Assembly: GCA_030824515.1 (NCBI GenBank)
Contig: JAVBXN010000011.1
Span: 1 to 64,000, forward strand
Source: Pelobacter sp.
GTDB lineage: Bacteria; Desulfobacterota; Desulfuromonadia; Geobacterales; Pseudopelobacteraceae
Direction: 5' to 3'
Length of the DNA stretch: 64,000 nucleotides
Part shown: positions 14,386 through 17,707 of the stretch, piece by piece
Layout: the number at the start of each line of letters is the position of its first letter
Position numbering within the stretch: position 1 is the stretch's first letter
The notes under the pieces: generated by a model
What the model saw: the letters and a program-made list of their open reading frames with translations, nothing else
Told to the model about the DNA's origin: nothing
The model's database searches: none
Translations under genes and position numbers: made by a program

Positions 14386-17112
14386 ATGACCAGAGAACTA
14401 GCCAAGGGGTACGAACCCCACAACGTTGAAAAGAGATGGTACGCCGAATGGGAGAGCAAGGGCTACTTCCACGCCGCCGCCACATCCGATAAGAAACCTT
14501 ATTCAATAGTGATCCCGCCCCCCAACGTGACCGGCGCGCTGCACATGGGGCATGCCTTGAACAACACGCTGCAGGATATCCTCTGCCGCTGGAAGCGGAT
14601 GCAGGGTTACAACGTCCTCTGGATGCCGGGTACCGACCATGCCGGCATCGCCACCCAGAACGTGGTCGAGCGCCAGCTGGCGGCCGAGGGCAAGGACCGC
14701 CACGACCTGGGACGCGAGGAATTCATCGAGCGGGTCTGGAAGTGGAAGGCCGAATCGGGCGGACAGATCATAGGCCAGCTCAAGCGGCTGGGAGCTTCCT
14801 GCGACTGGGAGCGCGAACGTTTCACCATGGACGAGGGGCTATCCAAGGCGGTCCGCACCGTGTTCGTCAAACTGTACGAGGATGGCCTGATCTACCGCGA
14901 CAACCGCCTGATCAACTGGTGCCCGCGCTGCCACACCGCGCTGTCGGACATCGAGGTCGAGCACGAGGACAAGAAGGGGCACCTCTGGCACATCCGCTAC
15001 CCGGTGGCCGGGGAGCCGGGCAAGTACGTGGTGGTGGCCACCACCCGCCCCGAGACGATGCTGGGGGATACCGCCGTGGCGGTGCACCCGGAGGACGAAC
15101 GCTACAAGCATCTGATCGGCAAGAAAGTGGTGCTGCCGCTGATCGGCCGCGAGATACCGGTGGTGGCCGACGACTACGTCGAGCTGGAGTTCGGCACCGG
15201 CGTGGTCAAGATCACCCCGGCCCACGACTTCAACGACTTCGAGGTCGGCCTGCGCCACGGCCTGGACAAGATCAACGTGCTGGACGAATCGGGCGTCATC
15301 AACGCCGCCGGCCACCAGTACGAGGGCATGGACCGCTTTGCCGCCCGCGCCCGCATCGTGGCCGAACTGGAAGAGGCCGGGCTGCTGGAGAAGATCGACG
15401 ATCACGCCATGTCGGTGGGGGGTTGCTACCGCTGCAAGACCGTGGTGGAGCCCTACCTGTCGCTGCAGTGGTACGTCAAGGTGGCGCCGCTGGCCGAGCG
15501 GGCCCTGGACGCGGTAAAATCCGGCCAGACCCGCATCCTGCCCAAACAGTGGGAAAACACCTACTACGACTGGATGGAAAATATCCGCGACTGGTGCATC
15601 TCGCGCCAGATCTGGTGGGGGCACCGCATCCCGGCCTGGTTCTGCGACCACTGCGACGGCGTCACCGTGGCGATGGAGGCACCCGGCAAATGCAGCAAGT
15701 GCGGCAGCGACGAGATCCGCCAGGAAACCGACGTGCTGGACACCTGGTTCTCCTCGGCGCTGTGGCCCTTCTCGACCATGGGGTGGCCGGACCAGACAGA
15801 AGAGCTGAAGACCTTCTACCCCACCGCCTGCCTGGTGACCGGTTTCGACATCCTCTTCTTCTGGGTGGCCCGCATGATGATGATGGGGCTGCACTTCATG
15901 GACCAGGTGCCGTTCAAGGATGTCTACATCCACGCCCTGGTGCGCGACGCCCAGGGGCAGAAGATGTCCAAGTCCAAGGGCAATGTGATCGATCCGCTGA
16001 CGATCATCGAACAGTACGGCACCGACGCCTTCCGTTTCACCCTGGCCGCCTTCGCGGCCCAGGGTCGCGACATCAAGCTGGCCGAGGAACGCATTGCCGG
16101 CTACCGCAACTTCTGCAACAAGGTCTGGAACGCGGCCCGTTTCACGATGATGAACCTGGAGGGCTTCGATCCGGACGCGGTCAGCTTCGACAGCCTGGAG
16201 TTTTCCCAGGGTGACAAGTGGATCCTGCACCGCCTGAACGAGACCGCCCGCACCCTGGACGAGACCCTGAGCGGCTATCGCTACAACGAAAGCGCCATGG
16301 CGCTCTACCAGTTCACCTGGAGCGAGTTCTGCGACTGGTACCTGGAACTCTCCAAGCAGGACCTCTACAACGGTACGCCCGAGCGCAAGCAGACTGCCCA
16401 GTTCGTGCTCTGGTACACGCTGGAAAACCTGCTGCGCCTCTTGCACCCCTTCATGCCTTTCATCACCGAGGAGATCTGGCAGGCCCTGCCGGGGACTGTA
16501 GGGGCGATGCCTTGCGCTCGCCCGCCTTTGGGTGGCGATATCGAAGAGGGCACCCGCAAGGGGATGCCCCTACAAACCATTATGCACGCTGAATATCCAA
16601 AATATTGCGACCAGCGTTCCTTCCCGGAAGCGGCAGCGGACATGGAGAAGGTGATGGCGGTCATCAGCGGCATCCGCAACATCCGCGGCGAGATGGAAGT
16701 GCCTCCCTCGAAACAGATCGCGGTGATCCTCTCCTGCGGCTCGGAGGAGAGCCGGCTGCTGATGAAGCACAACGAAGGCGCGATCATCAGCCTGGCCCGC
16801 ATCTCCGACCTGGCGATCGGCAGCGGCCTGGAGAAACCGGAGGACGCCTCGATCCAGGTGGCCGGCGATGTGCAGATCTTCGTCCCTCTCAAGGGACTGG
16901 TCAACGTCGAGGAAGAGGAAAAACGCCTGTTGAAGGAGATCGGCAAGATCGACAAGGAGATCGAGATGTTCTCCAAAAAGCTCTCCAGCCCGGCCTTCGT
17001 GGACCGCGCCCCGGCCGAGGTGGTCGAGAAGGAGCGCCAGAAGCTGGCCGAGGTGACCGGCAAGAAGCAGGTTCTGGAAGAGAGCCTGGACAAGATCAGG
17101 AAGTTGAAATAA
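14386..17112 (+). CDS. valS: valyl-tRNA synthetase
   Basis: Class Ia synthetase charging tRNA-Val, 908 residues. The HIGH motif appears as HMGH (PPPNVTGALHMGHAL, about 45-59) and the KMSKS loop as GQKMSKSKGNV near 525. A Zn-type CDHC...CSKC pair lies near 420-445, and the C-terminal 65 residues form the usual coiled-coil arm. The editing CP1 domain spans about 190-400. Residues about 705-730, within the anticodon-binding region between EEIWQALPG and IMHAEYPKY, are encoded by a 78-bp palindromic element absent from normal ValRS; the frame is kept. The rest is intact, so the enzyme is presumably functional with a surface loop. Confidence 0.97.
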   Translation: MTRELAKGYEPHNVEKRWYAEWESKGYFHAAATSDKKPYSIVIPPPNVTGALHMGHALNNTLQDILCRWKRMQGYNVLWMPGTDHAGIATQNVVERQLAAEGKDRHDLGREEFIERVWKWKAESGGQIIGQLKRLGASCDWERERFTMDEGLSKAVRTVFVKLYEDGLIYRDNRLINWCPRCHTALSDIEVEHEDKKGHLWHIRYPVAGEPGKYVVVATTRPETMLGDTAVAVHPEDERYKHLIGKKVVLPLIGREIPVVADDYVELEFGTGVVKITPAHDFNDFEVGLRHGLDKINVLDESGVINAAGHQYEGMDRFAARARIVAELEEAGLLEKIDDHAMSVGGCYRCKTVVEPYLSLQWYVKVAPLAERALDAVKSGQTRILPKQWENTYYDWMENIRDWCISRQIWWGHRIPAWFCDHCDGVTVAMEAPGKCSKCGSDEIRQETDVLDTWFSSALWPFSTMGWPDQTEELKTFYPTACLVTGFDILFFWVARMMMMGLHFMDQVPFKDVYIHALVRDAQGQKMSKSKGNVIDPLTIIEQYGTDAFRFTLAAFAAQGRDIKLAEERIAGYRNFCNKVWNAARFTMMNLEGFDPDAVSFDSLEFSQGDKWILHRLNETARTLDETLSGYRYNESAMALYQFTWSEFCDWYLELSKQDLYNGTPERKQTAQFVLWYTLENLLRLLHPFMPFITEEIWQALPGTVGAMPCARPPLGGDIEEGTRKGMPLQTIMHAEYPKYCDQRSFPEAAADMEKVMAVISGIRNIRGEMEVPPSKQIAVILSCGSEESRLLMKHNEGAIISLARISDLAIGSGLEKPEDASIQVAGDVQIFVPLKGLVNVEEEEKRLLKEIGKIDKEIEMFSKKLSSPAFVDRAPAEVVEKERQKLAEVTGKKQVLEESLDKIRKLK
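16497..16574 (+). repeat. 78-bp palindromic element inserted in frame in valS
   Basis: Two 27-nt arms (16497-16523 beginning TGTAGGGGCGATGCC, and 16548-16574 ending GGGATGCCCCTACA) are inverted copies matching at 20 of 27 positions, with outer 9 bp identical. The spacer is 24 nt. The element is exactly 26 codons long, contains no stop in the valS frame, and adds Gly/Pro/Arg-rich residues to the protein. It resembles protein-coding palindromic elements (compare the Rickettsia RPE type) and intergenic TGTAGGGGC-type repeats. Confidence 0.85.
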
Positions 17113-17148: not shown

Positions 17149-17496
17149 TTGAGCTCGTTCGACTTTTCATTTGCACAAAAACTTGCCGATAGCGATAAAA
17201 TCGCTTTTAAACGCCATGCCGTCATGCGTATGCAAGAACGTGGTATTCGCGCAGACGATGTCAAGCTGATACTATTGATGGGAGAGGTTATTGAAGAATA
17301 TGCATATGACCATCCCCTGCCGAGTGCTTTAATATTGGGTGTAACGCTGGCCCAACGTCCACTTCACGCAGTGGTTGCTGTTGATTCAACCGATGGTGGA
17401 ATGTTGTGGGTTATTACCGTATATGAACCTGATTTGCGTAATTGGGATCATGATTTAAAAACAAGGAGAAACAACGATGTTGTGTCCATTGTGTAA
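17149..17496 (+). CDS. DUF4258 protein, likely toxin of a toxin-antitoxin pair
   Basis: A 115-residue protein starting at TTG with a GAAAGGG site upstream. Landmarks FKRHAVMRMQERGI and the terminal VITVYEPDLRNWDHD are typical of DUF4258, a small family related to RelE/MqsR-type toxins. The next gene, a YgiT-type zinc-finger protein, overlaps its end by 20 bp, the standard order for these pairs. The local base composition is clearly AT-richer than valS and nadK on either side, consistent with horizontal arrival. RNase activity is inferred, not shown. Confidence 0.75.
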   Translation: MSSFDFSFAQKLADSDKIAFKRHAVMRMQERGIRADDVKLILLMGEVIEEYAYDHPLPSALILGVTLAQRPLHAVVAVDSTDGGMLWVITVYEPDLRNWDHDLKTRRNNDVVSIV

Positions 17497-17707
17497 AGGT
17501 AATATGGAAAAAAGCGTTGCCAATCTTCCGTATCGTCTGTCGGAAAGAAATCTGGTGGTTTTGGTGAATGTGCCGGCGTTGGTATGTGAACAATGCGGTG
17601 ACGAATATATTGAGATTGATGTCGTGCGCAACGTTGAGAAGGTACTTGAAAGAGTGCGTGGCGATGGAATCAGCATGGGATTTGTGGAGTATGCTCTCGC
17701 GGCATGA
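17477..17707 (+). CDS. YgiT-type zinc-finger protein, likely antitoxin
   Basis: A 76-residue protein with two CxxC pairs (MLCPLCKG and CEQCGDEY) forming the YgiT-type zinc finger seen at the N-terminus of MqsA. The helix-turn-helix half of MqsA is missing, so it is a short-form antitoxin. It follows and overlaps the DUF4258 gene, preceded by a strong AAGGAG site. It probably neutralises that protein; self-repression through DNA binding is uncertain without the HTH. The 148 bp after it, up to nadK, hold no gene I can support. Confidence 0.8.
   Translation: MLCPLCKGNMEKSVANLPYRLSERNLVVLVNVPALVCEQCGDEYIEIDVVRNVEKVLERVRGDGISMGFVEYALAA

Follow-up and report, generated by a model that had tools for sequence, protein, structure and literature searches.

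A GTAG-tagged REPIN in frame in valS of a Pelobacter genome, at a valyl-tRNA synthetase linker entered repeatedly by unrelated repeats

Introduction

How does an essential gene come to carry a palindromic repeat in frame, and is the repeat or its position the unusual part? The question is raised by valS, the gene for valyl-tRNA synthetase (ValRS), in a stretch of 64,000 nucleotides from Pelobacter sp. (contig JAVBXN010000011.1, positions 1 to 64,000 of the forward strand; hereafter the window). A 78-bp imperfect palindrome lies within the open reading frame (ORF) of this gene. We show that the element is of a known kind. It is a REPIN, that is, an inverted pair of repetitive extragenic palindromes (REPs), and belongs to the system of REP-associated tyrosine transposases (RAYTs, also called TnpAREP). 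What stands out is the site rather than the element, since this one linker of ValRS has received repeats of unrelated families again and again. We consider it highly probable that these in-frame insertions are neutral and that ValRS tolerates them in a disordered loop, and that the REPIN in the window is of RAYT-class origin.

In-frame repeats in proteins are usually single curiosities. Here one site of an essential enzyme records many insertions across an order, by which we mean the Geobacteraceae and allies, judged from named relatives. Below, G000 is the genome that the window comes from, other G numbers are genomes of relatives, P numbers are database proteins and L numbers are loci.

Results

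A REPIN within valS

The features of valS that concern us are as follows.

14386..17112, forward strand: valS, valyl-tRNA synthetase, 908 aa, no internal stop (ORF and NCBIfam match)
16489..16575, forward strand: ValRS linker, residues 702-730, between EEIWQAL and TIM.AEYP; occupied by REPs or heptamer arrays in other genomes of the order
16497..16574, forward strand: REPIN in frame, residues 705-729 and parts of codons 704 and 730 (pairing and fold)
16498..16523, forward strand: REP unit 1, GTAG tag and imperfect hairpin GGGCGA...TCGCCC, with CT directly 5' of GTAG
16519..16543, forward strand: central part, itself with a small hairpin (comparison with G005 and G140)
16548..16573, reverse strand: REP unit 2, inverted, GTAG tag and hairpin GGGCAtCCC...GGGTGCCC

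The ORF matches the NCBIfam family for valine--tRNA ligase at 1321 bits (cut-off 704). Its palindrome has two arms of 27 nt each (16497-16523 and 16548-16574) with 24 nt between them, which are complementary at 20 of 27 positions (74%), the outermost nine pairs being exact. Twenty paired positions were never reached in 200,000 mononucleotide shuffles of the 78-mer (maximum 19). The RNA fold of the element, at -45.3 kcal/mol (z -4.98), was equalled in none of 200 dinucleotide shuffles. Position, pairing, shuffles and fold all agree with the palindrome described in the first-pass annotation, which had been made from the sequence and without database searches.

The reading frame of valS passes through the palindrome without a stop or a shift. 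Codon 705 is the GTA that begins at 16498, i.e. the start of GTAG, and the element ends within codon 730. The annotation had the element adding 26 codons; the open frame stands, but the net gain is 22 residues relative to the 7-residue linker of relatives (PGTKTTP), because KTTP is replaced by the insert. Taken by itself, the tag GTAGGGRC occurs in the window no more often than expected (2 matches against 2.52), so the significance of the element rests on its pairing and on copies elsewhere.

Each arm of the palindrome is a unit in its own right, a GTAG and then a hairpin stem of about 8 pairs, and the whole element consists of two such GTAG-tagged REP hairpins in opposite orientation. The right unit, read on the opposite strand, is GGGCATCCC...GGGTGCCC. 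Inverted pairs of GTAG-tagged REPs have the same build and go by the name of REPINs or BIMEs (bacterial interspersed mosaic elements) in the relevant sections of PMC3733652 and PMC6006769. In the valS insert of G005 both arms have changed in sequence and yet each still folds on itself, so conservation falls on the hairpins and not on the long palindrome. The central part differs from that of G005 at 2 of 25 positions and from that of G140 at 3 of 25.

A covariation test on 25-nt REP units of G000 supports the hairpins. Stem cells were paired in 98.2% of cases among 14 units, a share that is raised by the way in which these were chosen by eye from 72 pattern matches: units of another length, duplicates and five 25-nt matches that lack the REP stem were dropped, and a paired unit at C14:5876 was overlooked. 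Cells with a double change numbered 24 against 6.8 in shuffles, and covariation was 0.598 against 0.213 (0 of 500 shuffles as high in each case). Two of the five measures were not above shuffles, namely double-change pairs (4 against 2.9) and pair types (9 against 8.8). The loose single-REP pattern itself was rejected as a count of REPs, since its 72 matches compare with 310 for the reversed control. The element therefore has what marks a GTAG-tagged REPIN: a GTAG at the foot of each unit, an imperfect hairpin with compensating changes, and an inverted pair.

Copies elsewhere in the genome and in relatives

The first-pass annotation had proposed a search for further copies, and these exist. 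A pair pattern finds nine REPIN places in G000, the copy in the window included, against 2 for the control; the element is multicopy, but modestly so. The 27-nt stretch 16548-16574, which holds REP unit 2, recurs identically at six further places. Five REPINs are near-identical (C9, C14 twice, C44 and C62) and belong to a larger repeat (L028, L029, L031, L032), with flanks common to all where seen: GGGATACGGTATTTAC... on one side and ...CATTTTC...ATCCC on the other. Four of the five lie within about 15 bases of contig ends, where the assembly breaks, so that it may count some copies twice. Copies with other spacing are found at C29, C38, C55 and C57, the C55 copy lying immediately upstream of a glcD-like gene.

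A single REP at C20:4806-4830 lies in frame in an ORF of 757 residues or more that weakly resembles squalene cyclases. This survey of REPs inside genes of G000 is partial: it leaves out 6 of 22 listed loci and, beyond 30 given loci, takes in four inspected copies. Two candidates were not counted, L165 because its frame does not look coding by eye, and L176 because the REP lies only about 13 codons into the open frame.

With a stricter pair pattern, REPINs are present in 30 of 39 genomes, where the control gives at most 2 matches per strand per genome. We fetched 39 REPINs from five relatives (15 of 15 in G035, 7 of 7 in G034, 6 of 6 in G032, 10 of 12 in G025 and 1 of 12 in G021). For six of them the surrounding open frame matches a Pfam or NCBIfam family, other candidate frames falling outside that family comparison:

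L332: uvrA
L329: DNA methylase
L316: FabA-like
L317: PP-binding
L313, L314: RAYT-like, both under the NCBI cut-off

The uvrA of G025 holds its REPIN in frame (L332 275-2065). It may be a second recurrent site, because uvrA is reported as a REP target in other species in part of PMC3733652. In G032, a REPIN adjoins the 3' end of the valS match (L339; G032:C143:21916-21987).

A linked transposase family

The Y1 transposases of family PF01797 were tried as the mobiliser and rejected: 33 loci (3 of G000 and 30 from 15 relatives; 94,674 bases) contain two GTAGGG[GA]C motifs, one of them REP-like, and none of the three PF01797 hits of G000 has the motif nearby. A divergent RAYT family, reached through the REPIN inside an ORF of G035 (RAYT-like frame L314), is by contrast linked to these repeats. 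With L314 as query, 49 places matched at E <= 1e-8, spread over 20 of the 39 genomes searched, and GTAGGG[GA]C is present in all 30 of the loci fetched from these (L343-L372). Setting aside five without an intact stretch from the HUH motif to WQRNYYE and two duplicates leaves 23 distinct intact genes, and 22 of these carry a REP in frame between the two motifs. REPs are both inside and flanking in 21 of the 23, inside only in L343 and flanking only in L352; L343 is not independent evidence, because it is the locus of the query ORF, which itself holds a REPIN.

The REP stems vary between RAYT loci, and those inside and flanking one locus are often alike (L350, L356, L364, L367, L369). In G025 the same ATTCATGAAT REP is found in the RAYT locus (L367) and in the ValRS insert. 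The RAYT-like frames match the NCBIfam model REP_Tyr_transpos partially, at 47.1 and 38.4 bits against a cut-off of 80, and match no Pfam family. Going by published description, this family looks like TnpAREP subclass 2.4, for which in-frame REPs between the HuH and Y motifs of the transposases' own genes are described (PMC6006769, in part). The GTAGGGGC repeats of the order are thereby tied to a RAYT family. The E. coli TnpAREP cuts at a CT beside the REP, according to part of PMC8266576; the CT directly before GTAG in the window is compatible with RAYT action and does not prove it.

The ValRS linker across the order

Among 141 genomes of the order that were searched, valS was found in 131 at E <= 1e-160, and 123 linkers were read, eight not having been fetched; 120 were parsed by script and G091, G126 and G052 by eye or with a rewritten script. 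The linker that follows EEIWQAL is most commonly 7 residues long, often PGTKTTP. It has 6-9 residues in 88 genomes and 11-30 in 35. Eleven of the 35 long linkers belong to one genus (g14) and are a similar peptide of 17 residues (PKGDRCSLRGSGGDW..), not visibly repetitive, in 11 of 11 genomes read (L209-L215, L217-L219, L221; G126 included). This is perhaps an old insert that has since been fixed. The other 24 long linkers were classed by eye:

GTAG REP: G000, G005, G140; G011, G099; G025; G091; G077 (with a heptamer array too)
GGTTCRA array: G031, G002
GGGGACC-like array: G028, G079, G119, G120, G123
GGGGAAC-like array: G097, G090
GCGGGAA: G089
GGGCAAG: G003, G010
GCTGAAGG: G044
degenerate or hard to class: G045, G076, G104

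Eight genomes have REP-type inserts; in seven of them a codon starts with the foot of the REP, which is GTAG in most (GTAA in G011, GCAG in G077), and in G140 the foot has decayed. In a survey of database ValRS proteins, 117 of the 120 best hits were parsed, and the linker has 7 residues in 49, 9 in 2 and at least 11 in 66 (50 distinct peptides), although the long-linker share is raised because the query bears the insert, and the order-wide genome set is the fairer count. P0021, labelled Pelotalea chapellei by its source, has PKRQGPGTGDQGTA in the linker. By eye, no comparable long linker is found in 68 more distant named loci (L083-L150).

The gap that the annotation had predicted for a ValRS alignment is seen against relatives with the 7-residue linker and no insert. 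Its expectation that the residues would be unique to this genome did not hold. Diverged versions of the window-type insert occur in G005, G140 and the database proteins P0001-P0007 and P0012, and the core RPPLGGD or variants of it are present in several database proteins. The insert in the window is therefore old rather than fresh, since diverged versions exist elsewhere and G140, which is of another genus, has almost the same central part. The likeness of the central part among G000, G005 and G140 points to one old origin of this insert.

Controls on site, dispersal and recurrence

Is ValRS generally tolerant of extra residues? Among 117 full-length ValRS proteins, compared from the first to the last core column, gains of at least 4 residues are confined to residues 701-708 and one further place at about residue 601, where two sister genomes (G035 and G042; L266, L267) gain 22 residues that do not look repeat-like by eye. 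The sister enzyme isoleucyl-tRNA synthetase (IleRS) serves as a nearly invariant control: of its 113 hits over 840 aa in the same clade, 106 are exactly 924 aa long, whereas the commonest ValRS length, 886, accounts for 35 of the 108 ValRS hits above that same size.

The two types of heptamer array examined, GGGGANC and GGTTCRA, are dispersed in most of their carriers. Matches to (GGGGANC)3, counted with overlapping matches and valS copies included, number 42 in G028, 43 in G089, 30 in G090, 11 in G123, 9 in G120, 7 in G079 and 5 each in G097 and G119, with control hits in G009 (4) and G089 (2). Those to (GGTTCRA)3 number 164 in G031, 43 in G002 and 27 in G077, and the control has none. Both patterns give 0 matches in the non-carriers G000 and G009.

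On a tree built without the linker, the insert classes need at least 22 changes, and insert versus none needs 16, gains and losses being counted together. G091 is scored as 'none' by the script in this tree, despite its single REP, and G079, G090 and other fragments are absent. Some of the changes will be losses or recombination. Insertion has recurred at this one site.

Effect on the protein

In the sole pair compared, G000 and G005, the insert differs at codon positions 1, 2 and 3 in 5, 5 and 6 places, respectively. The corresponding values for the flanks are 9, 4 and 52 in 200 codons upstream, and 13, 7 and 53 in 150 codons downstream. With both flanks pooled, Fisher's test gives p = 0.0024 for the third-position share and p = 0.0002 for codons that change the amino acid. 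As the insert lacks the bias towards third positions in this pair, it appears to drift nearly free of coding constraint, with the requirement that it stays open.

An AlphaFold2 model based on a broader alignment has a mean predicted local distance difference test score (pLDDT) of 88.7. Residues 706-728 are the sole segment under 50, and are flanked by helices at 691-700 and 747-769; the insert is thus predicted to be disordered. A first structure model from a shallow alignment (mean pLDDT 60.5) was discarded.

Genes directly after valS

Two small overlapping ORFs, 17149-17496 and 17477-17707, follow directly after valS, and we take them to resemble a toxin-antitoxin pair of the DUF4258/YgiT type. 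The second has a zinc-finger-like pattern, CPLC...CEQC; NCBIfam gave nothing for the first.

Discussion

In this work, we have described a site in ValRS that has received repeats of several families. The sequence of events that we propose is as follows. A GTAG-tagged REPIN, whose mobiliser would have been a RAYT resembling subclass 2.4, would have entered valS in frame in an ancestor, within the linker after the helix that ends in EEIWQAL. The insert is very probably translated, and not removed, as a disordered loop, one that the enzyme seems to tolerate without benefit while the sequence drifts. Other REPs and unrelated heptamer arrays have also filled that loop many times in the order, presumably because it is one of the very few points where this essential enzyme accepts extra residues. 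That the element is an inserted palindromic mobile element, as the first-pass annotation had suggested, is upheld by its copies in the same genome, by relatives without the insert, by its REP anatomy and by the linked transposase family in relatives.

Several observations weigh against parts of this reading. The central part is well conserved in G000, G005 and G140, which a neutral filler would not need, and together with the similar peptide of genus g14 this argues against a purely neutral insert. The insert stands instead of KTTP and is no clean addition. G001 and G101, clade mates adjoining G000 and G005, have the short linker, which means that loss or recombination has to be at work as well. 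In G005 the REPs of the RAYT (L344) are no more than similar to the REPs in ValRS, and in G011 the REPs of the RAYT (L351) and of ValRS differ. G000 has no RAYT of the linked family (0 matches at E <= 1e-8); its REPs may therefore be orphans, and the present mobility of the element in G000 would lack the support of a resident RAYT. The heptamer arrays may have grown by slippage, and in G097 dispersal is not established, as (GGGGANC)3 is found in valS and in one other place on the same contig. Finally, the tree was made by a quick method and 42 of its 114 inner branches are weak.

Could the linker instead be a landing pad? Some feature of the DNA, or of transcription or replication there, e.g. 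a small inverted repeat at the empty site, would then attract RAYTs and other repeat-generating processes, so that unrelated systems (RAYT-driven REPs and heptamer arrays) would be directed to one point of valS throughout the Geobacteraceae and allies. If so, each lineage would be adding a repeat family of its own at one and the same loop of the protein. Unrelated repeat types do converge on a point of about 8 residues, and the shared register of the REP foot fits such guidance, but the TAG within GTAG bars one of the three frames on that strand anyway. An exact inverted repeat with arms of at least 5 nt stands at the empty site in 26 of 87 short-linker genomes, a count without a control that we do not use as evidence of targeting; 61 of the 87 have no such repeat. 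Protein tolerance alone predicts the same convergence, because selection removes insertions elsewhere in an essential gene. We regard targeting as unlikely, and tolerance as the probable maker of the hotspot. The heptamer arrays pose a related question: they might be local slippage products of a G-rich seed (CCGGGGAC), unrelated to mobile elements, leaving the REP cases alone as insertions. The baseline linker often starts with CCGGGGAC, which is close to the heptamer GGGGACC, and the restricted array of G097 would suit this origin. The dispersal of GGGGANC and GGTTCRA arrays in most carriers, and their absence from two non-carriers, speak against it, as do the units GGTTCRA, GCTGAAGG and GCGGGAA, which are not derivable from such a seed. 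Local slippage is a possible, if doubtful, account of that part of the hotspot, and it leaves the element in the window untouched.

Two further explanations concern the fate of the peptide. It might by now be useful to ValRS, in tRNA contact, regulation or the binding of a partner, and be kept by selection. Its persistence in G000, G005, G140 and several database proteins with a similar core would fit, as would the uniform 17-residue linker of g14. Related genomes of the same genus do without the insert, however, and neither the differences between G000 and G005, with no bias towards third codon positions, nor the predicted disorder is what a selected peptide would lead us to expect; we think this improbable. 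Alternatively, the segment might be removed from the mRNA or bypassed, so that the mature enzyme lacks it. The RNA can form a very stable hairpin, but no Rfam family is matched in the window at the gathering threshold, the frame stays open in the relatives that bear the insert, and we know of no mechanism that would fit. We give this next to no credence. The reading that we prefer is thus that of tolerated insertions in a disordered loop, with a RAYT as the likely agent of the REPIN.

The insertions in the ValRS linker form a naturally occurring set that an aminoacyl-tRNA synthetase has tolerated, and they let one ask directly whether the distribution of repeats reflects where elements land or what selection spares.

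How does this compare with known systems? In the open-licence PubMed Central (PMC) literature, supplements excluded, we met with no report of repeats inserted in Geobacter valS or of this recurrent ValRS site. The first-pass annotation held that palindromes within proteins are rare outside Rickettsia, which is at odds with cases already in print (portions of PMC3733652, PMC6006769, PMC2996986 and PMC2700814). Rickettsia palindromic elements (RPEs) are likewise palindromic repeats in frame in protein genes (PMC3733652, in part). RPE-4 and RPE-6 are counted among the CGTC repeats, for which the part of PMC3733652 considered here reports no transposase association; by that description, the valS element differs in its host, in being of the GTAG and not the CGTC type, and in having a linked RAYT in relatives. 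Also comparable are the multicopy sequences of Geobacter metallireducens and G. bemidjiensis, which include heptanucleotide arrays and palindromic families between genes, with one multicopy family per species inside genes without a frameshift (sections of PMC2700814 and PMC2996986). Those sections describe neither valS nor a recurrent site, unlike the present case.

PMC3733652 also describes, in the sections used here, GTAG REPs in frame inside genes, uvrA and tRNA synthetases among them, which is the same arrangement as ours. The nearest report is that of REPs at about the same site in recB of two Xanthomonas species. No meeting of unrelated families at a single site, such as the ValRS linker shows, is described in those sections, and the text contains no word Geobacter or Desulf-. 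TnpAREP/RAYT subclass 2.4, as described in part of PMC6006769, a text with 0 mentions of Geobacter or Desulfo, is likewise close: a RAYT flanked by the same REPs, with an in-frame REP inside the RAYT gene, is what we meet in the relatives. The genome that carries the element differs in that no RAYT of the linked kind is found in it at E <= 1e-8. In contrast to the systems in that part of PMC6006769, the REP here lies in an essential host gene, at a site met by several repeat families.

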